Shown one piece after another: positions 1,079-58,110 of a stretch of 64,000 nucleotides of DNA. Both the position numbers and the translations under genes were made by a program. Every line of letters begins with the position of its first letter. The first letter of the stretch is position 1. Origin of the DNA: Actinoplanes sp. NBC_00393 (GTDB taxonomy: Bacteria; Actinomycetota; Actinomycetes; Mycobacteriales; Micromonosporaceae); assembly GCF_036053395.1 (NCBI RefSeq), contig NZ_CP107942.1, forward strand, positions 6,466,501-6,530,500, written 5' to 3'. Below the pieces are notes generated by a model. That model was not told the origin of the DNA, ran no database searches, and was given only the letters and a program-made list of their open reading frames with translations.

Positions 1079-1861
1079 ATGAGAACGGCCCACGTCCTAG
1101 CCACTCTCGTCACCTCGACCCTGTTGAGCCTCGCCATCGCCGCACCCGCCCAGGCGGCGAGCACCATCGACTACGTCGCTCTCGGCGACTCGTACTCCAG
1201 CGGTGTCGGCGCGCCCGGCCAGTCCGGGAGCTGCCTGCGCAGCAACTACAGTTATGCCGCCCAGTGGGCCAGCCGGAACAGCCCGGCGTCGTTCCAGTTC
1301 CTGGCCTGCGGCGGCGCCACCACCGACGACGTCCTCGACACCCAGGTACCGGCCATGCGCAGCGGCGCCGACCTGGTCAGCATCACGATCGGCGGCAACG
1401 ACGCCGGCTTCGCGCCGACCGTCATCACCTGCCTGACCTCCAGCGACTCGGCGTGCGCCGCCAAGGTGAACGAGGGGAAGGCGTACGTCAGCAACACCCT
1501 GCCCGCGAAGCTGGACGCCACCTACCGGGCGATCCGTGCCAAGGCGCCCGACGCCCGGGTGGTCGTGCTGAACTACCCGCTGCTCTTCGGCACGTCGTCG
1601 GTCCTCTGCGAGATGAGCATCGCCAAGCGCCGATCCCTGAACAGCGGAGCGGAAGCCCTGGACGCCATGATCAAGCAGCGCGCCGAGGCCGCCGGATTCG
1701 TCTACTCCGACGTGCGTGACGAGTTCGCCGGGCGCGGGGTCTGCACGTCCCGGCCGTTCATCAACGGTCTGACGATCATCCCGCCGCAGAACTCCTACCA
1801 CCCCAACAGCAGCGGCTACACCAACGGATACCTGCCCGCCTTCACCGGCTCCGCCGCCTGA
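1079..1861 (+). CDS. Secreted SGNH/GDSL-family lipase or esterase
   Basis: A 260-residue secreted hydrolase that should cleave ester bonds of lipids outside the cell. An Ala-rich Sec signal peptide covers residues 1-26, cleaved after AQA. Family blocks are present in order: block I GDSYSSG with the nucleophile Ser38, block III IGGNDAGF, and the catalytic His in YHPNSSGY near the C-terminus. Six or so cysteines in the mature part fit the disulfide-rich Streptomyces-type enzymes (S. rimosus lipase, S. scabies esterase). It stands alone, with two operator-like palindromes upstream and a palindromic repeat array immediately after the stop. The true substrate cannot be read from sequence. Confidence 0.9.
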   Translation: MRTAHVLATLVTSTLLSLAIAAPAQAASTIDYVALGDSYSSGVGAPGQSGSCLRSNYSYAAQWASRNSPASFQFLACGGATTDDVLDTQVPAMRSGADLVSITIGGNDAGFAPTVITCLTSSDSACAAKVNEGKAYVSNTLPAKLDATYRAIRAKAPDARVVVLNYPLLFGTSSVLCEMSIAKRRSLNSGAEALDAMIKQRAEAAGFVYSDVRDEFAGRGVCTSRPFINGLTIIPPQNSYHPNSSGYTNGYLPAFTGSAA

Positions 1862-7623: not shown

Positions 7624-7652
7624 AGTGGCCCCCGTTGATTAGTTTGGGCGTC

Positions 7653-8495
7653 ATGAACGGACTGGCTGTCGCCTGCCGGCGAGTGGTACATATCTACCGC
7701 GCCGAGGCCGGCGACGTGGTCGCCCTCGCCGGCGTCGACCTCTCCATCGCGCCCGGCGAGACGCTCGCCCTGGTCGGCCCGTCCGGCTCCGGCAAATCCA
7801 CGCTGATCGCCCTGCTCGCCGGCCTGATGCGGCCGTCCGCCGGCCGGATCAACGTCGGCACCTACGACATGGGCAAACTCTCCGACGGCGAGATCTCCCG
7901 GCTGCGTGGCACCGAGATCGGCGTGGTCCTGCAGGGTGCCGCGCGCAACCTGCTGCCGTACGCCTCGCTGCACCGCAACATCTGGCTGGCGCAGCGCCGC
8001 GCCGCACACACTCGCGGCATCAAACTCGACGACCCGGACCGCATCCTCGACCTGGTCGGCCTCCCCGGCCAGGGCCGCCGCCGGCTCGCCGACCTCACCC
8101 CCGGCGGCCGCCAGCGCGCCGCCCTCGCGGTCGGCATCGCCGCAGGTCCCGGCCTCCTGCTGGTCGACGAGCCGACCAGCCGGCTGGACACCGCGGGCCG
8201 CGACGAGGTGCTCGACGCGCTCGAAACGGTGAACGAGGAACGCCACACCACGATCGTGGTGGTCACGCACGACAACGAGGTGGGCGCCCGGCTGGGCCGC
8301 GCGGTCACCATCCGCGACGGCCGCGTCGGCGCCGAGGGGCGCGACGGGCAGGATTTCGCGGTGGTCGCCGGGGACGGCACGGTCCAGCTGCCGCCGGACG
8401 TGCTCGGTTCCTACCCGCCGGGCACCCTGTTCACGGTGCAGCACGTGGACGGCGAGGTCACTCTGGTGCCGGGAGGAGCAGAAACCCCGGTCTGA
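7653..8495 (+). CDS. ABC transporter ATP-binding protein (MacB/LolD type), degenerate signature
   Basis: A 280-residue nucleotide-binding subunit of the type that partners FtsX-like permeases. Walker A GPSGSGKST, Q-loop VVLQGAARNL, Walker B GLLLVDEPTSRLD and H-loop VVTHD are intact. The signature is LTPGGRQR instead of LSGGQQQR, which could weaken ATP hydrolysis at one site. The C-terminal 60 residues after the H-loop form an extra small domain ending in VTLVPGG. I place the start at the ATG reading MNGLAV rather than the earlier in-frame one at 7635. Its likely partners are the four permeases at 9978-22074, though it is on the opposite strand. Confidence 0.88.
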   Translation: MNGLAVACRRVVHIYRAEAGDVVALAGVDLSIAPGETLALVGPSGSGKSTLIALLAGLMRPSAGRINVGTYDMGKLSDGEISRLRGTEIGVVLQGAARNLLPYASLHRNIWLAQRRAAHTRGIKLDDPDRILDLVGLPGQGRRRLADLTPGGRQRAALAVGIAAGPGLLLVDEPTSRLDTAGRDEVLDALETVNEERHTTIVVVTHDNEVGARLGRAVTIRDGRVGAEGRDGQDFAVVAGDGTVQLPPDVLGSYPPGTLFTVQHVDGEVTLVPGGAETPV

Positions 8496-8498
8496 GTA

Positions 8499-8526
8499 CG
8501 GGACAAGCCCGTCCCGCCGCATTTTC
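8499..8526 (+). terminator. Hairpin after the ABC ATPase gene, possible terminator
   Basis: Four bases after the stop, CGGGAC (8499-8504) pairs with GTCCCG (8511-8516), followed by CCGCATTTT. The stem is short but the T run follows closely. An 18-bp perfect palindrome, GCCCGGCGGCCGCCGGGC, lies further down at 8570-8587. Confidence 0.5.
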
Positions 8527-8650
8527 ACCGTCCCCTGAGCACCGCGCGGCCCGGGTGCCACTCAAGGCCGCCCGGCGGCCGCCGGGCCCATGCAGGCTTT
8601 CGCTCGGTGCCGGCTTTCCTACAGCCGTCCAGGCCGCACGCCCCCACTGG

Positions 8651-9073
8651 GCTGACGCCCAGTGCTGCTTCGCGCGCTTCAAAGCGACACTCACGGTCAG
8701 CCGGACAGAGCAGCTGACGCCCAGCGCTGCCTCCCACGCTTCAAAGCGACACTCACGGTCAGCCGGACAGACCAGCTGACGCCCAGCGCTGCCTCCCGCG
8801 CATCAAAGCGACACTCACGGTCAGCCGGACAGACCAGCTGACGCCCAGCGCTGCCTCCCACGCTTCAAAGCGACACTCACGGTCAGCCGGACAGACCAGC
8901 TGACGCCCAGCGCTGCCTCCCGCGCATCAAAGCAACACTCACGGTCAGCCGGACTGGACGGCTGACGCCCAGTGCTGCTTCGCGCGCTGCGAAGGGACAC
9001 TCACGGTCAGCTGGGTGGGTCGGCTGACGGTCAGTGCTGTCTCCCAGGCTGGGAGGCAGCAGTGGCGGTCAGC
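8651..9073. repeat. Palindromic 51-nt repeat array 2 (seven copies, 62-nt period)
   Basis: Seven 51-nt units start at 8651, 8713, 8775, 8837, 8899, 8961 and 9023, each exactly 62 apart, and all run GCTGAC...GTCAGC. Linkers are 11 nt, mostly CGGACAGACCA. The last unit is the best palindrome: 23 of its 25 opposed base positions can pair, two as G-U. The middle copies pair less well but keep the outer stem. It is the same element as at 1871-2045. It fills the gap between two convergent ABC ATPase genes and has no plausible coding frame. Confidence 0.88.
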
Positions 9074-9110
9074 TGGAGGGCTACGGGCGGGCCTGGAGGG
9101 CTACGGGCGG
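9071..9110. repeat. 20-nt tandem duplication including a stop codon
   Basis: The sequence CTGGAGGGCTACGGGCGGGC occurs twice in a row. The copy further from the repeat array contains the TAG stop codon (9101-9103, read on the minus strand) and last codons of the ABC ATPase gene; the other copy lies just past the stop and abuts the last palindromic unit. Confidence 0.85.
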
Positions 9111-9754
9111 GCCCAGACGGCTTCGCCGTCGGCGAGGTGCAGTTCGCGGTCGCAGGTGGCAGCGGCCTCCGGGTCGTGGGTGGCGAGTACGACGGCGGCG
9201 CCGCGGGTGGCCTCGGCGCGGAGCAGCTCCAGGACGCGCTGGCGGTTGGCCGCGTCCAGTTCGCTGGTCACCTCGTCGGCGAGCACCACGTTGCCGTGCA
9301 GGGCGATCCCGCGGGCGATCGCCGTACGCTGCTGCTGGCCGCCGGAGAGCTCGTCGATCAACTGGTTGGCCTGGCCGGAGAGGCCGAGGGCGTCCAGCGC
9401 CTCGGCGGTCCGCCGGCGGGCGTCGGCCGGCGAACCACCGGTGGCGATCACCGCGACCGCGATGTTCTCGGCCGCGGTGAGGATCGCGGCCAGCCCGTTG
9501 TCCTGCGGGATCAGTACGACGCCCTGGGCGACCGCACGATCCCGGTCCCCCACCGGCTCGCCGTCGACCGCGACCGTCCCGATGCGCGGCGGCAGCATCC
9601 CGGCCATCGCGCTGAGCAGGGTGGTCTTGCCCGCGCCCGAGGTGCCGGTGACCGCGAGCAGCTCACCCGGCCGGGCCGTCACCGTGATCCCGCGCAGCAC
9701 CGGCTCGTTCCCCGCGTATGCCAGGTCGGCCCCGTCCAACGTCAGCGTCCGCAT
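9101..9754 (-). CDS. ABC transporter ATP-binding protein (MacB/LolD type)
   Basis: A 217-residue ATPase with all motifs canonical: Walker A GTSGAGKTT, Q-loop LIPQDNGL, signature LSGGQQQR, Walker B VVLADEVTSELD and H-loop ATHD. The ATG at 9754 is preceded by GAGGAG at good spacing, which decides the start over a GTG two codons earlier. It lies downstream of, and on the same strand as, the permease gene ending at 9978, so it is probably the last gene of the permease operon and powers one or both permease pairs. The 223-nt gap before it is filled by a 39-40-nt tandem repeat. Confidence 0.92.
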   Translation of the reverse strand: MRTLTLDGADLAYAGNEPVLRGITVTARPGELLAVTGTSGAGKTTLLSAMAGMLPPRIGTVAVDGEPVGDRDRAVAQGVVLIPQDNGLAAILTAAENIAVAVIATGGSPADARRRTAEALDALGLSGQANQLIDELSGGQQQRTAIARGIALHGNVVLADEVTSELDAANRQRVLELLRAEATRGAAVVLATHDPEAAATCDRELHLADGEAVWARP

Positions 9755-9780
9755 CGCCACTCCTCAATGTTGCCCGGAAT

Positions 9781-9977
9781 CTATCTGATCGCCCGGCGGT
9801 GCAGGGCCCGGCGCCACGTCTTACTGACCGCCCGGCGGCGCAGGACCCGAGCGCCGCGCTTGTCTGACCGCCCGGCGGCGCAGGACCGAGCGCCGCGCTT
9901 GTCTGACCGCCCGCCGTCACAGGCCCGAGCGCCATGCTTATATGACCGCCCGCCGTCGCAGGGCCCGGGCGCCACGC
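9781..9977. repeat. 39-40-nt tandem repeat derived from the 3' end of the permease gene
   Basis: Copies of CTGACCGCCCGGCGGCGCAG-type units begin at about 9786, 9825, 9865, 9904 and 9943. The next one, at 9983, is the coding end of the permease gene itself (encoding the final RRRAVR and the stop at 9978-9980). The non-coding copies are thus decayed multiplications of the gene's last 40 nt. They occupy the space between permease and ATPase genes inside a presumed operon. Confidence 0.82.
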
Positions 9978-12900
9978 CTATCTGACCGCCCGCCGACGTA
10001 GAGCCCGGTCGCCGGCGAGGGCTGCGCCCAGGTACAGCAGCAGGACGGCGGTGCCCACGCCGAGCAGGACCGGCAGCCGGGGCAGGCCGGGCAGCGGCAG
10101 GTCGGGCGGTTTCAAGCCGGACAGGGGCAGCGCCCACCCGGTGAGCAGCCAGCCCGCCACCCCGGCCAGCAGGCCCACGAGCGCCGCGATGATCACCAGC
10201 ACCGGGTACGTCCAGAAGGTGGCCTGCGCGGCCTGGCCCGGCCGTAGTCCCTGGGCCCGCAGCACCGCCAGATCTTCGGCGCGCCGGGCCCGGTGCACCC
10301 CGATGGTCAGCACCAGCGCCCCGGCGCCGAGCAGGACGGTGAGCACGCCGGCCAGCACGTGGAACCAGAGGGCGACGGCCGGTCCCTGCCGGTCCAGCCG
10401 GGCCCGGACCTGCCCGGCCGAGGTGTCGGCGATGACCGTGAGCCCCTGCTCACCGAGCCGTTCGACGATGTCGGCGGGGGCCGCCGAGTTGAGCCACACC
10501 TGCGGTTGCTGGGCCCGCGCCTCGTCCACCGAGAGCCGGTCGGCGAGTTCCAGGTCGACCAGGGTGCCGGTGCGGCCGAGGGCGGGCACGGCGGGCAGTT
10601 CGGCGACCGCGGTGACCGGCACCGCGTCGCCGCCCAGGCTGGTGATCACCCCGGCGTCGGGCATCGTCCCCGCGTACGCCATCGGCACCGGCGTCGGTGT
10701 GCTCACCGGCCGGAGCCACGCGGCGCCGCCGGAGCCGGAGGCGACCGCGACGTCGAAGGTGAGACCGTCCTTCGCGGCGGCGGCGGCGGCGAGCCGGCCG
10801 CGCTGCGACGCCCACCAGCGGGACGGGTCGGTGACCCGGATCGGGGCGGCGTCCCCGGCCGGTTCGGCGGCGCGCACCTCGTGGATCACCACCTGACCGG
10901 TGACCTCGGAAGTCGACCCGCCGACGATCCCGATCCCGCTGACCCGGCAGCCTTCCACGCAGATCGCCGACCGCTGCCGGTAGTCCCGGGTGCCCGCGCT
11001 GATCTCGCCGAACTCCACGATGCGCTCGCCCAGGCCGGTCAGCGACGACACCGCGAGGATGAGCCGCAGTTCCACGTCGGACCCGGTGTCGCCCCTCGTC
11101 ACCCGGATCACGACGTCCTCGCCGGTGAACTCCGGCCGCTCGGGGGCCGTGAAGCGCAGTCGCTCGCTGACCCGGCCGGCGTCCGGCGCGTCGCGCGGCC
11201 AGGACGCCACCGCGGCGAGCCGGGGCGAGTCCACGGCCAGGCCGGCCAGCGGGCGGGGACCGCCGCTGTACAGCTGGCTCACCGCCATGGCGTAGGCGCC
11301 CTGCGGGTCGACCGCACGGACCGCGTCGAGCAGCCGGCGGCGGGGCACCGCCTCGAGGGTGAGCACCCGGTCGGCGCCGGTGCCGAGCTCCGCCTGGACG
11401 GCCCGGCCGCGGGCGGCGGTGTCCACCGCGCAGACCGCGTACCCGGCGACCGCGGCGGTGGCGGCCAGCAGCGCGAAGAGCCGGATCGCACCGGGGCGGC
11501 GGGAGAGCTGGAGGCCGGCGAGCGCGACTCCCAGCCGGCCGCGGTGCAGGGCGCGGACCGCGTACCGGCTGACGAGGGGCAGCAGGGCGTGGCCGATCAG
11601 CAGTGTGGTCGCCAGCATGAGCAGGGCGGGCGCGAACATGCCGACGCCGGTGAGCGAGCCGTCGGAGAGGATCAGCTGGCCGCCCGCGACGACGGCCAGG
11701 ACCACCACGACCGCCTCGGTGGCCTGCAGCCGGCGTCGCTCGGGCCGGGTCCGCCGCAGAAGGGTGGTGACTGGGCTGAACAGCTGCCGGCGCAGGGCGG
11801 CGACCGCGGCGAGGAGGGCGGCCGCGGCGGCAATCGGCGCATACCGCAGGGAGGTCCAGCCGGCGTCGGCGCCGACGCCCGGGAACAGGCTCGCCGCCAC
11901 CGCGTTCACCATCAGCTGCCCGGCGAGGCAGCCGGCCAGGGCCCCGGCCAGCACCGCGGCGAGGCTCTCCCCGGTCGCCAGCCACCAGCGGGTCCACCAG
12001 CGGGTCCCGCGCAGGGCGACGACGGCCAGCTCGCTCTGCCGAGCCTCGGCGCCGTGGCCGACGGTCAGGTAGATGCTGAAGCAGGCGAGCAGCACCAACG
12101 GCACGGCCAGGACCGGGACCAGCAGCCGGGCCTCGTCGCGGCCCTCCTCGATGCGCTGGAACAGGTGCGGCATGCCGGTGGTGATCTGGATGGCGCCGAC
12201 CTCGCGGGACACCTCCTCCACCCGGGTCAGGTCGGCCCGCACGTCGTCGAGCCGGTCGATGTCGAAGGTGCCCGGCGCGGCGATGCCGTCGATCGCCATC
12301 ATCGTGACGGTCTGCTTCATCGCGGGCAGGGTGATCGAGTTGGTGAAGACCGGCTCGCCGGGCCCGACGTCCGGGCCGCTGATGAAGTAACCGTGCGTCC
12401 CCCAGTAGGCGCCGGCGGGCTCGACCGGCTGGTAGATCCCGACCACCGTCAGGCTCTTGGCGGCAGCGGCTGCCTCCCACTTGGGGATCGGGTCGTCGTT
12501 GAGCCGGGCGCCGCTCAGCCGGATCCCGTCGCCGGCGGTCAGGCCCAGCCGTTTCGCGGTCTGCTCGCCGAGCAGCACATCGCCCTCGCCGGCCAGGCAG
12601 CGCCCCGCGACGACCCGGACGTGAGCGCAGACGTCCTGGCGGAAGACCAGCCGGGACGCGAAGATGTTGGTCCGTTCCAGGCCGACTGTCGCCATCTCGG
12701 TCGAGTACACGTACGAGAAGCCGTCCATGTCGATCAGCGCCCGGCCGACGTCGGTGAAGTCGATCGACGTGCCACCGGCCATCTCCTCGGCCTCGGCGTC
12801 CCGGGCGCCGCGCACCACGAGGCTCAGCTCGCTGGGCGCCGCGGTGGCGATCTGGCCGGCGGCGATCGCCCGGTCGGCGGCGAGCAGGTAGGCCGGGGCG

Positions 12901-13001
12901 GCCACGGCGGAGGCCACCGCGAGCATCGCCAGCAGGGCCAGCGTGATGGCCTGCCCGCGCCGGGACCAGAGCATCGCCAGGGCGAGAGCGAGGGAGGTCA
13001 T
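9978..13001 (-). CDS. Giant FtsX-like ABC permease A (paralogue of 16025-19093)
   Basis: A 1007-residue permease with about ten membrane helices: one at the N-terminus (RRGQAITLALLAMLAVASAV), a first large extracytoplasmic domain, a central cluster of helices from about residue 260 to 500, a second large outer domain, and three C-terminal helices, i.e. two FtsX cores. The outer domains carry paired cysteines (DVCAHVRVVAGRCLAG; ICVEGCRVSG). The ATG overlaps the stop of the preceding permease by four bases (12998-13001), showing translational coupling. The sequence is very close to the gene at 16025-19093, so the two arose by duplication. MacB/LolCE-like permeases transmit ATP-driven movement to outer domains, typically to export or extract lipids or peptides; the substrate is unknown. 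Confidence 0.88.
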   Translation of the reverse strand: MTSLALALAMLWSRRGQAITLALLAMLAVASAVAAPAYLLAADRAIAAGQIATAAPSELSLVVRGARDAEAEEMAGGTSIDFTDVGRALIDMDGFSYVYSTEMATVGLERTNIFASRLVFRQDVCAHVRVVAGRCLAGEGDVLLGEQTAKRLGLTAGDGIRLSGARLNDDPIPKWEAAAAAKSLTVVGIYQPVEPAGAYWGTHGYFISGPDVGPGEPVFTNSITLPAMKQTVTMMAIDGIAAPGTFDIDRLDDVRADLTRVEEVSREVGAIQITTGMPHLFQRIEEGRDEARLLVPVLAVPLVLLACFSIYLTVGHGAEARQSELAVVALRGTRWWTRWWLATGESLAAVLAGALAGCLAGQLMVNAVAASLFPGVGADAGWTSLRYAPIAAAAALLAAVAALRRQLFSPVTTLLRRTRPERRRLQATEAVVVVLAVVAGGQLILSDGSLTGVGMFAPALLMLATTLLIGHALLPLVSRYAVRALHRGRLGVALAGLQLSRRPGAIRLFALLAATAAVAGYAVCAVDTAARGRAVQAELGTGADRVLTLEAVPRRRLLDAVRAVDPQGAYAMAVSQLYSGGPRPLAGLAVDSPRLAAVASWPRDAPDAGRVSERLRFTAPERPEFTGEDVVIRVTRGDTGSDVELRLILAVSSLTGLGERIVEFGEISAGTRDYRQRSAICVEGCRVSGIGIVGGSTSEVTGQVVIHEVRAAEPAGDAAPIRVTDPSRWWASQRGRLAAAAAAKDGLTFDVAVASGSGGAAWLRPVSTPTPVPMAYAGTMPDAGVITSLGGDAVPVTAVAELPAVPALGRTGTLVDLELADRLSVDEARAQQPQVWLNSAAPADIVERLGEQGLTVIADTSAGQVRARLDRQGPAVALWFHVLAGVLTVLLGAGALVLTIGVHRARRAEDLAVLRAQGLRPGQAAQATFWTYPVLVIIAALVGLLAGVAGWLLTGWALPLSGLKPPDLPLPGLPRLPVLLGVGTAVLLLYLGAALAGDRALRRRAVR

Positions 13002-16000
13002 CGGCCGGTCTCCCGCAGGGAGCGGATCATCGGCAGCAGGGACAGCCAGCCGACCAGGCCGACCAGGAGGAACGCGGCGAGGGTCGCGACGAGCACGGCG
13101 ACCGGCGGCAGCGCGGACGGCGCCGCGAGCACCTGCCACCCGTCGGTGAACGCCGGGACCGCGCTGCCGGTGAGACCGGCGGCCAGCACCGTGGCCAGCA
13201 GACCGCAGAGCAGCCCGGCGATGATCAAGGTGGCCGTACCCGCGTAGCCGGTGGCGACCGCGACCCGGACCGGCAGGCCCTGGAGCCGCAGCGCCGTCAG
13301 CCGTGCGCTGACCGAGCGCCGGTCGACCGCCGCGGCGACCGCGAGCACGGCGGCCGCCAGCAGCAGCGCCGCTGTCCCGGTCAGCAGCGCGAACCGGACC
13401 ACCGCCGCGGGCCCCTGCGCGCCGAGCCGGTCGGCCCGGTCGGTGACGGTCTCGTCGCCGGTCACCGTCAGCCCCGCCGCGGTCAGGTCGGCGACCAGGC
13501 CGGACCGGGCGCCGGGCGCCAGCCACACCTGGAACTCGCCCGCCGGCTCGGCCTCGGCGGCCAGTCGCCGGACGGCGTCCAGATCCACCATCAGGCCGCT
13601 GCGCCCGACCACCGGCAGGGCGGTCACCGTGCCGGTCAGCCGGACCGGTACGGGCGACCCGTACGCCTGAAGTGCCGGATCCTCGTAGTGCCAGTCGGCC
13701 ATCGCCGCCCCCGCCAGCACCACCGGCAGCGGAACGGGCGCGTCGGCCGCCCACGCCTCCCCGCTGATCTGCTTGAGATTGGTCGTGTTCTCGTCTCCCA
13801 CCAGGTGCAGCGCACCGTCCCCGGCAGTCACGTCCATGGCCGCACCGGCCGTGCCGGCCCGCCACCGGGCCACGTCGCCGAGCGCTGCACTGTCCAGCAC
13901 CGGCGCGTCCGACCCGGACTGGGTCACCTCCCGGACCGTCACCGCGGCACCGGCCGGTGGCGCCTTGGCCCGGCCGCTCTCGTCCGGCGGCGAGGTCACC
14001 TCCCACCGCACGATCCGGCAGCCGGGCGCGGCGTCGCAGCCGGTGAGCGGCGCGGCGACGGTCTGCGCCCCGGCCGCGAGAGTCCCGAACGCGGCGATGA
14101 CCCGGTTTCCGGTCGCTTCGTGCTGCAGCAGCAGGTTGAGGGCCACCGGCTCGGCCCCGTCGCGGCTGACCCGGGCGGTGAGCCGGTCGCCGGTGACCAC
14201 GGGTGGCGATGGTCGGGTGTCCGCGGCCATCGCCGCGGGCAGGGCCGCGACCGCACCGTACTCCGGCCGCCAGGTGGCCAGGGCGGCGAGCCGGGCGGTG
14301 TCGACCTCGAGGACCCGCTGGGCGATGTCGCGGCTCACCACGGCGGCCATCGCTTCCCGGCCGCCGGGGTCGGCCTGCCGGACCGCGTGCAGCAACGCCG
14401 TACGGTTAGCGCCCTCGACGGTGAGCACCCGCACCGCGCCCATCTCGGCCGCGCTGCGGTCGGCCCGCGCGGTCTGCTCGGCACGCCAGCCGGCGAAGGA
14501 CGTGATGAACAGCGCGACCGCCACCACGACCAGCATGAACACCCGGTCGGTGCCGGCCGAGCGGGAGATCTGCAGGGCGGTGAGGCCGAACCGCAGTCGT
14601 CCGGAGCGCAGCGCGGCGCCACCGGCCCGGCCCGCGGCCCGGCTCAGCACCCGGGCCACCAGCAGGGCGAGCGCCAGTGCAGCCAACGCCGAGGCGGCCG
14701 GTGCGAGGCCTTCCGCCGGACCACCGGCCCGGGCCTGATAGAGCACGGCGGCGGCGACCACGAGCAGCAGCACGTCGGCCAGGGCGGACCGCCAGTCGCC
14801 GCGCCCGGTCACCGCCCGCTGCAGCAGCGACGACACCGGGCGGGCGAGCACCACGGTCTCCACCACCGCCAGCACGATCATGCAGCCGAGGAGCAACGCG
14901 GCCACCGCGCCGGCCGACCAGACCAGGGCCTGCTGCCGGTCGGCGGTGACCGTCACCGGCCCGGTCAGCGCGACGGCCAGCAGATAGCCGGCCGCGGCCC
15001 CGATGACCACGCCGCACAGCAGCGGGATCAGGTGCTGACCCCACGCCAGCCGGAGCATGCCGGACCGGGCGACGCCACGCAGCTTGAGCAGGGCGGCGTC
15101 GGCCCGCCGGTCGCGCAGGGTGTACCACCCGGCGAGGCCGACGGCGAACCAGGTGAGCAGCAGCATCTGCACACCCGCGGTCAGCACGCCGCTGAGGATG
15201 GTCGACCGGTCCCGGGCGATGGTCTCCAGCAGGGGCCGGGCCGCGGTGGCGAACCGGAGCTGGTTGGTCCCGAGCCGGGCGTCCGCCTGGGCCAGCTCAC
15301 CGGCCAGGTCGTAGCCACCGTCACCACGGATCAGCGCCGCCGGGAGCTCGCCGTCGTAGGCCGCCGTGATGCCCCACAGCTGCCGGGCGGTGAATGTGTC
15401 CACCGGGGTGAAAGCCGGGGACAGCCCGGACTCGGCCCGGAAGTGGGTGGCGCTCCAATACACCCCCGCGGGGTCGGCCAGGGTGTAGCTCGCGACGACC
15501 CGCGCCATCAGCGGCACGTTGAAGTTGGAGCTGCGCATCTCCACGGTGTCGCCCGGCGCCAGCCCGAGGCGGGTGGCGGCCTCCTGGCTGATCGCCACCT
15601 CACCGGAGCGGGCGGGGCACCGGCCCTCCAGCCGGACGCGGTCGCAGAACCCTTCCCGGTACGCCATCGGCATGGCCAGTGTGTTCGCCCCCTGCCGCAC
15701 GGTCAGCGGCACGGTCAGCCCGACGACCGGCTCGCGCAGCTCGACCCGGAGCCCGGCTCGCACCCCGGTGGCGAACCGGTCCAGCGCGGCCTGCGGTTTG
15801 CCCTGCGTGTCGATGCTCTGCCGGACCGTCACCACACGCTCGGTGGACTCCGCACCGGCCAGGTTGGTGCCGGCGGCGCGCCCGGCCGCGGCAAAGCCAT
15901 ACCACGGGCCGGCGGCGACGATCGCGGTGGCGAGCGCGGCCAGCACGAGGATCGTCAGCACCTGCGCGGTCCGCGCCCGGACCGCGCCGAGGACGAGCGC

Positions 16001-16006
16001 GAACAT
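12998..16006 (-). CDS. Giant FtsX-like ABC permease B (paralogue of 19090-22074)
   Basis: A 1002-residue permease with an N-terminal helix (VLTILVLAALATAIVAAG), an outer domain with FCDRVRLEGRCP and the family stretch GEVAISQEAATRLGL, a central helix cluster (about residues 265-515), a second outer domain with CDAAPGCRIVRWE, and three C-terminal helices. It pairs with permease A by the 4-nt ATGA overlap and starts 18 nt after the stop of permease C, so all four lie in one run. The N-terminus MFALVLGAVRARTAQ is nearly identical to that of the 19090-22074 protein. Together with A it would make a heterodimeric permease. Confidence 0.88.
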   Translation of the reverse strand: MFALVLGAVRARTAQVLTILVLAALATAIVAAGPWYGFAAAGRAAGTNLAGAESTERVVTVRQSIDTQGKPQAALDRFATGVRAGLRVELREPVVGLTVPLTVRQGANTLAMPMAYREGFCDRVRLEGRCPARSGEVAISQEAATRLGLAPGDTVEMRSSNFNVPLMARVVASYTLADPAGVYWSATHFRAESGLSPAFTPVDTFTARQLWGITAAYDGELPAALIRGDGGYDLAGELAQADARLGTNQLRFATAARPLLETIARDRSTILSGVLTAGVQMLLLTWFAVGLAGWYTLRDRRADAALLKLRGVARSGMLRLAWGQHLIPLLCGVVIGAAAGYLLAVALTGPVTVTADRQQALVWSAGAVAALLLGCMIVLAVVETVVLARPVSSLLQRAVTGRGDWRSALADVLLLVVAAAVLYQARAGGPAEGLAPAASALAALALALLVARVLSRAAGRAGGAALRSGRLRFGLTALQISRSAGTDRVFMLVVVAVALFITSFAGWRAEQTARADRSAAEMGAVRVLTVEGANRTALLHAVRQADPGGREAMAAVVSRDIAQRVLEVDTARLAALATWRPEYGAVAALPAAMAADTRPSPPVVTGDRLTARVSRDGAEPVALNLLLQHEATGNRVIAAFGTLAAGAQTVAAPLTGCDAAPGCRIVRWEVTSPPDESGRAKAPPAGAAVTVREVTQSGSDAPVLDSAALGDVARWRAGTAGAAMDVTAGDGALHLVGDENTTNLKQISGEAWAADAPVPLPVVLAGAAMADWHYEDPALQAYGSPVPVRLTGTVTALPVVGRSGLMVDLDAVRRLAAEAEPAGEFQVWLAPGARSGLVADLTAAGLTVTGDETVTDRADRLGAQGPAAVVRFALLTGTAALLLAAAVLAVAAAVDRRSVSARLTALRLQGLPVRVAVATGYAGTATLIIAGLLCGLLATVLAAGLTGSAVPAFTDGWQVLAAPSALPPVAVLVATLAAFLLVGLVGWLSLLPMIRSLRETGR

Positions 16007-31213: not shown

Positions 31214-31285
31214 TGGGCGATACTGGGATCGAACCAGTGACCTCTCCGGTGTGAACGGAGCGCTCTCCCGCTGAGCTAATCGCCC
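31214..31285 (-). tRNA. tRNA-Val (anticodon CAC)
   Basis: Read on the minus strand: acceptor stem GGGCGAT/ATCGCCC, D-arm GCTC-AGCGGGA-GAGC, anticodon arm CTCCG-TTCACAC-CGGAG with anticodon CAC, a 5-nt variable loop, T-arm ACTGG-TTCGATC-CCAGT, and discriminator A. All stems pair. CCA is not encoded. A TAGAGT box lies about 15 bases upstream and may be the -10 element. No integrase or attachment-site copy is seen beside it. Confidence 0.95.
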
Positions 31286-56165: not shown

Positions 56166-57617
56166 ATGCCCATAATGCACAGCATCACCGACTTCCCCGC
56201 GGACGACTCCGGACGGCGCAGCAGCAGCGCGTTCGGTCGTGCCGTCGTCGCCGACGCCCTTCGCCCCGTCGACCCCGCCGCCGCCGCGGCCGCCGAACAG
56301 GAACCGGACTGGCGGCGCGGCTATCTGCGCCACTTCCAGGCCCTCGTGGAGGCGGGTCTCGCCGCCGACGGGACCGCCGGCTACGAGATCGCCGAGGCCG
56401 GCCTGGCCTCGGTGCACGCCCGGATGCGGTACCACCGCGAGGACGGCGAGTTCACCCTCGCCCAGGCCCTGCTGGCCGCACCGGAGCAGCCGCTGGACAC
56501 CGTCGAGGTGACCGGTTCCGGCGAGCCGGAGCGTGAACTCGTCCTGCCGTACCGCGGGAAGCTGCTGCGCGGCGACGAACTGCAGCGTCAGCTCGACGCC
56601 TGGATCGCCGCGGGTGTCGTGGAGGAGTCGTGCGCCGAGGCGGTACGCGAGGTCGCCGCCTCCCCCGACTGGCTCGACCTGAGTGACCAGCGCCTGGTCG
56701 CGCTCGGCGCCGGCGCGGAGATGGGCCCGGTCGCCGCGGTCCTCGGCTGGGGCGGCACCGTCCTCGCCGTCGACCTGCCCCGGGACGAGCTCTGGCAGCG
56801 GATCAGCACCGCCGCGTCGAAATCGGCCGGCCGGCTGCTCGCACCGGTCCGCGACGACCAGACGCCGGGGGCCGACCTGCTCACCGACCTCAGCGCGGTG
56901 GCGCAGTGGCTGCTCAACTTCAGCGGGCGGCTGATCCTGGGCAACTACGGGTACGCGCCGGGTGCGGCGTACCCCCGGCTGGCGGCGGCGGTGGACGCGC
57001 TGGGCGTACATCTGCGGCAGCATCGGCACGACACCGCGCTGGCCGTTCTGGCCACGCCGACCGATGTCTACGCCGTGCCGGCCGGCGCGGTCGCGCAGGG
57101 CCGGGCGCGGTACGCCGAGCGGTCCCGGCTCGCCGGGCTGACCGGCACGGTTTCGGCCGGCCGGCTGCTGCGCCCCAACTACCCGTGCGACGTGGCGCCC
57201 GGCATCAACGACAGCCTGGTCCCGCAGCAGGGGCCGAACTACGCGCTGGCCAAGCGCATCCACCGCTGGCGGGCCACCCTGGGCCGGCGCGACGGTGTGG
57301 TGAGCTTCGCGGTCGCGCCGCCCACCCGGACCCGTTCGGTGGTCAGCAACCGCCTGCTCGCCGCCGCGTACGCGGGCGCGCACCTGTTCGACGTGGAGAT
57401 CTTCGAACCGGCGACGGCCAGCAAGCTGATGGCCGCGCTGATGGTGCACCAGATCCGCAATCCCCGCCCGGCCCGGCCCGCCGCCTGGGAGGACGAGGCG
57501 ATCGCCGCGGCCCACGGCGGCCTGTGGCGGGTCGCCTACCACCCGCGGACCGCCCTGCCTCTCGCCGCCGTCCGCGGCCTGCTCCTCCCCCGCCGCGCAC
57601 AGCCCACCCGGCCATAA
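56166..57617 (+). CDS. Unrecognised 483-residue protein with a Rossmann-like segment
   Basis: No family is recognised with certainty. The N-terminal 170 residues are mostly helical (WRRGYLRHFQALVEAGLAADG...). Near residue 180 the sequence LVALGAGAEMGPVAAVLGWGGTVLAVDLPRDELWQRI has a glycine-rich loop after a beta strand and an acidic end of strand 2, as in NAD- or SAM-binding Rossmann folds. The C-terminal half contains YGYAPGAAYPRLAAAVDALG and NDSLVPQQGPNYALAKRIHRWRA. There is no signal peptide. The ATG follows AGGAG; another ATG three codons later is possible. The gene's last bases are the founder of the 63-nt repeat that follows. Confidence 0.7.
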   Translation: MPIMHSITDFPADDSGRRSSSAFGRAVVADALRPVDPAAAAAAEQEPDWRRGYLRHFQALVEAGLAADGTAGYEIAEAGLASVHARMRYHREDGEFTLAQALLAAPEQPLDTVEVTGSGEPERELVLPYRGKLLRGDELQRQLDAWIAAGVVEESCAEAVREVAASPDWLDLSDQRLVALGAGAEMGPVAAVLGWGGTVLAVDLPRDELWQRISTAASKSAGRLLAPVRDDQTPGADLLTDLSAVAQWLLNFSGRLILGNYGYAPGAAYPRLAAAVDALGVHLRQHRHDTALAVLATPTDVYAVPAGAVAQGRARYAERSRLAGLTGTVSAGRLLRPNYPCDVAPGINDSLVPQQGPNYALAKRIHRWRATLGRRDGVVSFAVAPPTRTRSVVSNRLLAAAYAGAHLFDVEIFEPATASKLMAALMVHQIRNPRPARPAAWEDEAIAAAHGGLWRVAYHPRTALPLAAVRGLLLPRRAQPTRP

Positions 57618-58110
57618 CGCACCCGACCGGCGACCCGCTTTCACGAGCCGCCCACCAGCCACCCAACGCAGCCGCCCATAACCTGCCTGACCGGCGGCCC
57701 ACCACCACGAGCCGCCCACCAGCCACCCAACGCAGCCGCCCACAACCTGCCTGACCGGCGGCCCACCACCACCAGCCGCCCACCAGCCGCCCAACCAACC
57801 GGCCACAACGTGCCTGAGCGGCGGCCCGCCACCACGAGCCGCCCACCAGCCACCCAACCAACCGGCCATAACCTGCCTGAGCGGCGGCCCGCATTCACGA
57901 GCCGCCCACCAGCCACCCAACCAACCGGCCATAACCTGCCTGAGCGGCGGCCCGCATTCACGAGCCGCCCACCAGCCACCCAACCAACCAGCCATAACCT
58001 GCCTGAGCGGCGGCCCGCATTCACGAGCCGCCCACCAGCCACCCAACCAACCAGCCATAACCTGCCTGAGCGGCGGCCCGCCACCACGAGCCGCCCATAA
58101 CGTGCCTGAG
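57618..58110. repeat. 63-64-nt tandem repeat derived from the gene's 3' end
   Basis: The marker CATAAC/CACAAC recurs at 57677, 57741, 57804, 57867, 57930, 57993, 58056 and, after a shortened unit, 58096. The first occurrence, at 57613, is the coding end of the preceding gene, with TAA being its stop codon. So each unit carries a copy of the stop-codon region: GGCCATAACCTGCCTGA, then GCGGCCCGCATTCACGAGCC, then GCCCACCAGCCACCCAACCA. Copies 3 to 7 are the most alike. Because 63 is divisible by three, open frames run through it on both strands, but start signals are lacking. Nothing else is seen up to 58258 except a GC-rich stretch. Confidence 0.88.

Follow-up and report, generated by a model that had tools for sequence, protein, structure and literature searches.

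What does a strictly spaced array of palindromes do where two convergent genes end? The question is raised by a locus of Actinoplanes sp. NBC_00393, contained in a 64,000-nt stretch of its chromosome (RefSeq assembly GCF_036053395.1, contig NZ_CP107942.1, positions 6,466,501 to 6,530,500 of the forward strand; hereafter the window, with positions counted from its first letter), in which seven palindromic units lie at 8651-9073 between two genes for ATP-binding cassette (ABC) transporter ATPases. The array belongs to a lineage-expanded family of extragenic palindromes, similar to the bacterial interspersed mosaic elements (BIMEs), that is found at gene 3' ends, mostly convergent ones. The reading of its role that we place first, at a probability of roughly 0.38, is that the units are putative DNA sites to which a palindrome-binding protein or a topoisomerase would bind at gene 3' ends, with roughly six turns of the helix from one site to the next, and both transcription termination and neutral expansion are close rivals of it.

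The array and its palindrome family

The units measure 51 nt each and are located at 8651-8701, 8713-8763, 8775-8825, 8837-8887, 8899-8949, 8961-9011, and 9023-9073, with six linkers of 11 nt between them (8702-8712, 8764-8774, 8826-8836, 8888-8898, 8950-8960, and 9012-9022), which gives six exact 62-nt steps between unit starts and bears out the constant spacing of seven units described in the original prediction. Each unit is composed of two inverted arms of 21 nt and a centre of 9 nt. The first ATPase gene (7635-8495, plus strand) ends 155 bp before the array, and the minus-strand gene (9101-9760), a conserved neighbour of the first gene in other Actinoplanes, has its stop codon 27 bp from unit 7, a strong hairpin; both genes match the Pfam family ABC_tran, as had been proposed for this convergent pair. 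The array is far beyond chance, with 14 matches to the half-site pattern in the window vs 1.23 expected, and an assembly artefact is unlikely because the genome is one contig and arrays of this kind recur at many loci. Directly behind unit 7, a 20-nt sequence stands in two identical copies (9073-9113), which extend into the minus-strand gene at its stop-codon end.

Palindromic repeats at a constant period near 61-63 nt recall clustered regularly interspaced short palindromic repeats (CRISPR), which consist of identical repeats separated by unique spacers. Here, in contrast, three of the six linkers are identical, linkers are repeated within other arrays as well, and the entire 62-nt unit is repeated without unique spacers, so that the array is not a CRISPR locus, as was initially stated.

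The abundance of the family was assessed in 100 evenly spaced 20-kb stretches, amounting to 2.0 Mb or 17.5% of the 11.43-Mb single-contig genome. A profile built from 84 units, selected for a length of 51 nt and for the hexamers at both ends and including perhaps some chance matches, detected 41 arrays with 124 units in the sample plus the window (39 arrays and 114 units in the sample alone), and the reversed sample gave zero matches at E < 0.01. Scaling of the 2.0-Mb sample suggests roughly 650 units genome-wide. Searches of the whole genome returned 630 matches to the half-site pattern with up to two mismatches vs 24 for the reversed pattern, and 617 matches to GTCAGC N3-33 GCTGAC vs 21 for its control. 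In 59 of 60 genomes, the genus-wide pattern GCTGGC N28-58 GCCAGC had fewer matches than the reversed pattern; it was uninformative on the family and was left unused. No arrays were seen in ten sampled loci at about 2.3-3.3 Mb, by the replication terminus inferred from the extremes of cumulative GC skew at L051 and L102, an array gap that was noticed post hoc; single pattern matches are present there. The window itself holds a second array of the family, with three units (1871-2045), in a co-directional gap 10 bp after a GDSL lipase gene (1079-1861, plus strand), in addition to tandem arrays devoid of notable palindromes at 2409-2832 (periods 22/67) and 9781-10007 (periods 39/79).

The midpoint of the arrays falls outside predicted genes in 40 of the 41 cases, the exception being a weak single unit within a predicted gene; these calls come from a home-made, approximate gene finder, which missed a large gene at 12998-16006. 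Convergent genes flank 25 of the 40 intergenic arrays, compared with 18.9% expected by intergenic length (binomial p = 1.6e-9), while 15 lie in co-directional gaps and none between divergent genes, for which 26.3% was expected (p = 4.9e-6). The siting at convergent gene ends that had been noted for a single locus is therefore a genome-wide bias, and this location counts in favor of protein sites. It could also have arisen passively if the family were a neutral or selfish repeat, that is, a palindrome that spread long ago at a period of 62-63 nt and expanded by slippage wherever it was harmless, with removal from promoters accounting for its location. Such an explanation is possible: tandem repeats abound in this genome (according to Tandem Repeats Finder (TRF), the sample plus the window have 528 arrays, counts in which locus L088 overlaps the window by 20 kb), and the other repeats, with periods of 30-140 nt outside 61-65, likewise seldom lie between divergent genes (6 of the 68 intergenic arrays that were classified; p = 0.08 for the comparison with the palindromes). 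However, the convergent bias of the palindromic family exceeds that of the other tandem repeats (25/40 vs 19/68, Fisher p = 0.0006), which argues against neutrality.

A step better conserved than the sequence between units

The notable feature of the family is that its step is better conserved than the sequence between its units. In a linker search that permitted 1 to 60 nt and counted each place once, 78 of the 80 linkers between complete units of this genome measured 11 nt (54) or 12 nt (24), and the two outliers, of 52 and 53 nt, contain a decayed half-unit. The short linkers comprise 46 distinct sequences, all of 11 or 12 nt, and set units that follow one another head to tail at distances of 62 or 63 nt. 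Such a fixed geometry with free sequence counts for protein sites, and it speaks against a neutral repeat. Among the 100 matches listed for GTCAGC/GCTGAC pairs, 75 had a linker of 11 or 12 nt and 25 were scattered over other lengths. A similar restriction was found in two relatives (G051 and G036), whose units have GCTGG..CCAGC ends and whose linkers measured 11 nt (1), 12 nt (30), 13 nt (14), or 24 nt (2), i.e., 11-13 nt in 45 of 47. Moreover, A. xinjiangensis carries a 63-nt array with a 51-nt unit and GCTGG..CCAGC ends, the letters of which we read as belonging to the family of the array at 8651.

The same preference emerged from TRF, by which intergenic arrays of the sample plus the window peaked at periods of 62 nt (15 arrays) and 63 nt (24), none of the remaining periods from 50 to 75 had more than three arrays, and arrays in coding regions showed no peak at 62/63. 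Periods of 62-64 nt were also recorded at family loci of five relatives (G015, G016, G021, G028, and G032), as far as these loci were inspected, which was in part. Outside the strict family, the 24 arrays of period 61-65 (17 from this genome, five from G051, and two from named Actinoplanes) had a mean palindromy z of 2.8, and in eight of them no more than 2 of 200 shuffles were as palindromic; the corresponding values were 0.39 and 1/47 at periods of 45-60, and 0.78 and 1/16 at periods of 66-85. The more frequent palindromy at 61-65 is a further point for protein sites. On our reading, three of the eight have other sequences, namely L041 and L044, with a GCGGC/GCCGC core, and the array of A. 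palleronii (L131, 6024-6193), which has a period of 61 nt, lies behind the orthologous ATPase gene and has arms unrelated to those of the family under study. A small sample of other genera (224 kb) gave zero arrays with a period of 57-67 nt.

An array of other sequence and near-equal period is present in the window as well (57604-58097; 63 nt, 7.8 copies). It is intergenic, with a GCGGC/GCCGC core and a short weak palindrome that 8 of 200 shuffles equalled, and it may or may not be part of the same phenomenon; arrays resembling it occur at L118 (8648-9132), L116 (8172-8570), and L044 (17320-17689).

B-DNA makes one turn per 10.5 bp, so that the pitch of 62-64 nt seen in most arrays corresponds to nearly six turns. 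If every unit were a DNA site, with inverted half-sites read by a putative palindrome-recognising protein or topoisomerase, about six turns between units would make all sites face the same side of the DNA, where several molecules could assemble side by side and form a boundary to transcription and supercoiling at the meeting point of convergent genes. Array growth by unequal recombination or slippage between units would keep each array homogenised.

Spread among relatives and history of the ATPase gap

A covariance-model search, in which match counts per genome are lower bounds, detected the family in 18 of 60 genomes of the genus (this one included), mostly the nearest ones, and in 2 of 44 genera of the same taxonomic family, the second by one weak locus. 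Among the 19 nearest relatives by neighbouring genes (L262-L280), 15 matched, two had no match (G023 and G055) and two were outside the search. This concentration among close relatives would also suit a neutral repeat. The letters of the stem are species-specific and the arms match each other, as illustrated by CCCTATC in G051, GGGTGCCTC in G014, and GCTGCTTC in the present genome. Across the 18 genomes, each represented by one model-chosen unit (L225, a 50-nt match; L236, outside the genus; L222, from the same genome as L233; and second loci were left out), 93.1% of cells were paired and covariation reached 0.442 vs 0.138 after shuffling, a value attained by none of 500 shuffles. The choice of best hits favors pairing, yet near-perfect 21-bp stems with different letters probably cannot come from choice alone. 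From species to species the two arms of the palindrome have changed in step, which counts against a neutral repeat.

Most of the named Actinoplanes-group species listed have an ATPase protein with 93-96% identity to the one here. The convergent pair is adjacent in 16 named species of that group, with gaps of -4 bp (overlapping stop codons) in four species, 1-49 bp in six, and 186-506 bp in six, compared with 605 bp here. The profile found units in none of these 16 ATPase gaps, and its sole match in the 16 loci fell outside the gap, where the array of A. xinjiangensis has its edge. Four of the six longer gaps carry other tandem repeats (periods 45, 51, 71, and 84). A genome search placed 67 genomes in the same genus, and the gap was paired by hand from the neighbour-gene listing in 50 of the 66 relatives, the other 16 being left out: 20 relatives had a gap of up to 60 bp, 16 one of 61-600 bp, and 14 a longer one. 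In G015, whose first two genes show the highest DNA identity to those of the present genome (94-96%), the gap is about 90 bp and a palindrome of this kind was absent by eye and BLAST.

Since the gap is 60 bp or less in 20 of 50 relatives, the array is a lineage-specific expansion rather than a required terminator, and orthologous genes that meet in overlapping stop codons lead to the same conclusion. The gap between the ATPase genes is thus a place tolerant of insertions; that other species fill it with different tandem repeats or large inserts is what a neutral repeat would predict. It appears to be an insertion hotspot, with 6.9-8.6 kb of extra DNA in 9 of the 50 genomes and 1.4-2.6 kb in four more. 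Paractinoplanes lichenicola (L137, after 5855) has another palindrome in the same place, where long inverted repeats occupy a 213-bp gap, around CGCCTGTTTCGTAGCTGGGG and the complement of this sequence.

RNA hairpins, mobile palindromes or DNA sites

One candidate role for palindromes behind stop codons is termination. Tandem U-less hairpins, formed in the RNA of both directions, would stop RNA polymerase and shield 3' ends, with additional copies raising the efficiency. Unit 7 behaves accordingly, since its fold (9021-9076, plus strand) reaches -46.2 kcal/mol (z -7.3, 0 of 200 shuffles equally stable) and the minus strand is also stable (z -5.5). In contrast, the four other units that were folded (1, 2, 3, and 6; units 4 and 5 were outside this comparison) did no better than shuffles. 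The original prediction counted 23 of 25 paired positions in unit 7, and although the strong hairpin stands, the count includes two G-T pairs and drops to 21 of 25 under strict Watson-Crick pairing. The central units, said to keep only an outer stem, are indeed weaker than unit 7, but somewhat more is kept, with 12-14 of 21 Watson-Crick pairs in units 2-6. The suggestion that edge units are the better hairpins did not extend to the genome, where it amounts to a mere trend (+0.5 pairs, p = 0.09, 19 arrays).

Evidence from the rest of the genome also favors a termination-like role of hairpins there, because strong stems in gaps of 40-600 bp were more common at gene ends, with 28 of 133 in convergent gaps that lack the family and 53 of 400 in co-directional gaps, than in divergent gaps (8 of 228), and shuffled gaps had none. 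Hairpin clusters have been reported to act as terminators, and for nearly 90% of these structures in Mycobacterium tuberculosis the U trail is reported to be missing or mixed (PMC8355165). The present arrays share with them the hairpins behind stop codons without a U trail, and differ in being copies of one sequence family at a fixed step. The gap contains neither T-run terminator-like sites (zero at 8400-9300), an absence that counts for protein sites, nor a classical promoter. A known RNA family was rejected as the identity of the array: the sole Rfam match above threshold in the window was a tRNA (31214-31285), and the seven matches up to E = 1 at 8400-9300 were all under the gathering scores.

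Pairing statistics separate the RNA and DNA levels further. The 45 units of this genome taken from the 124 (51 nt, more than 25 bits, more than five differences from one another) lacked stem covariation, and 12 best-paired array representatives, a choice biased towards pairing, covaried weakly (19 of 500 shuffles reached their value). This half-site-like variation without stem covariation counts for a DNA site. A G-U signature of RNA pairing was absent or reversed in the arrays of this genome, with 77 A-C mismatches vs 55 G-U pairs on the sense strand of co-directional arrays (p = 0.07) and 182 vs 141 on the sense strand of the gene nearer to convergent arrays (p = 0.03), the reverse of what RNA pairing predicts. 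As stem covariation and G-U excess are both missing in this genome, we lean towards DNA rather than RNA. In addition, termination does not need a fixed linker, and the fixed step and fixed centre are unexplained by a terminator. Although stems that covary between genomes and within G014 are in its favor, we consider the terminator explanation somewhat doubtful.

Mobilisation is a third way to account for high copy number. Repetitive extragenic palindromes (REPs) and their derivatives (REPINs, BIMEs) are linked to REP-associated tyrosine transposases (RAYTs), and the present family is similarly high in copy, extragenic, palindromic and arrayed at 3' ends. A mobilising RAYT-like transposase, for which a test had been suggested, was not supported. 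The genome has two partial matches to the RAYT domain Y1_Tnp (PF01797), one with an internal stop codon, and DNA fetched around both contained zero palindromic units; they represent two partial IS200/IS605-type transposase genes (L210 and L211), the latter with a TnpB-like zinc-finger stretch by eye. Y1_Tnp matches occurred in 7 of 18 family-positive and 8 of 42 family-negative genomes of the genus (p = 0.12), which leaves 11 positive genomes without any. Besides, GTAG/CTAC was found in the outer eight bases of 0 of 63 units (45 from this genome and 18 cross-genome), CGTC at positions 45-48 occurred in 21 of 45 and 0 of 18 units, respectively, and spacers are nearly constant. A RAYT-mobilised family in the strict sense is therefore very unlikely.

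These differences extend to the published descriptions. REPs are described as 20-40 bp long and lie mainly between convergent and co-directional genes, and in the GTAG family most stems are of 6-9 bp with a terminal tag (PMC3733652); the main text of that article mentions neither Actinobacteria nor Streptomyces, Frankia, or Mycobacterium. The Actinoplanes palindromes resemble GTAG/CGTC-tagged REPs in high copy number, palindromy and location, but have 51-nt units, a stem of about 21 bp, near-constant spacers and no conserved tag, in line with the earlier view that they are no usual REP pair. BIMEs have been described as regularly spaced REPs in alternating orientation, linked to RAYTs, and BIME-2 reportedly binds DNA gyrase (PMC2817692). 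The likeness to BIMEs that was initially suggested is real: in both, inverted arms separated by short spacers of alternating kind form extragenic arrays, at many loci and at gene 3' ends. In contrast to BIME-2, the arms are of 21 nt, the spacers are near-constant (9 and 11-12 nt), and neither a RAYT link nor a REP tag is present. Likewise, inter-REP segments of Stenotrophomonas are stated to show no homology and substantial length variation (PMC2817692), whereas the linkers described here differ between arrays and keep their length. A search of open-licence articles by title or abstract start found none on this palindrome family.

DNA-level recognition is accordingly placed first, with modest confidence, because covariation is missing in this genome, units other than unit 7 fold poorly, A-C mismatches outnumber G-U pairs, and the step and centre are fixed. 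Several observations weigh against it. When decayed and partial units are included, profile spacings scatter (62 nt in 43 of 83, 63 nt in 19, and 58-182 nt in the remaining 21), and two family-like arrays of relatives depart from the 62-64 step (47 nt in G058, L227 1610-1727; 60 nt in G042, L228 1512-1688), which a neutral repeat would allow. There is essentially one spacing mode, save two 75-nt steps, so that helical phasing is compatible with the data and not proven, and a single period passed down from an ancestor would give a similar picture. Five of the eight palindromic arrays of period 61-65 are, on our reading, diverged relatives of the family with GCTGG..CCAGC ends (L112, L076, L141, L246, and L255). 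In co-directional gaps the upstream stop codon is the nearer gene end in 11 of 15 arrays, which is not significant (p = 0.06), and array L080 is flush at both ends, with the downstream start nearer. The top hits of relatives, placed by the home-made gene finder as well, are less biased, with 8 convergent, 13 co-directional and 3 divergent (n = 24). Stems covary strongly across the 18 genomes, in one model-selected hit each, and the top-scoring hairpins of G014 (8 loci) covary within that genome (0.18 vs 0.075, a level reached by 0 of 500 shuffles), which would be expected of RNA or cruciform structures with a function; within G019 (8 loci) there was no covariation and within G052 (4 loci) it was not significant. 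Finally, the palindrome-binding protein is itself purely putative.

REP and BIME sequences are normally explained by RAYTs and described with variable spacers, and the Actinoplanes family is a high-copy palindrome without RAYT association in which spacing is conserved more than linker sequence. In a bolder form, which we regard as improbable, these arrays would represent a previously undescribed, chromatin-like class of bacterial elements, in which palindromes of freely drifting sequence keep a pitch of six turns (62-64 bp) behind hundreds of genes. A putative protein or topoisomerase, co-evolving with these sites, would recognise them, line up on one side of the helix and shield convergent genes from each other. 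The system allows the roles of repeats at convergent gene ends, including termination, supercoil relief and protein scaffolding, to be tested, as well as how a repeat family alters both of its arms in concert across a genome.
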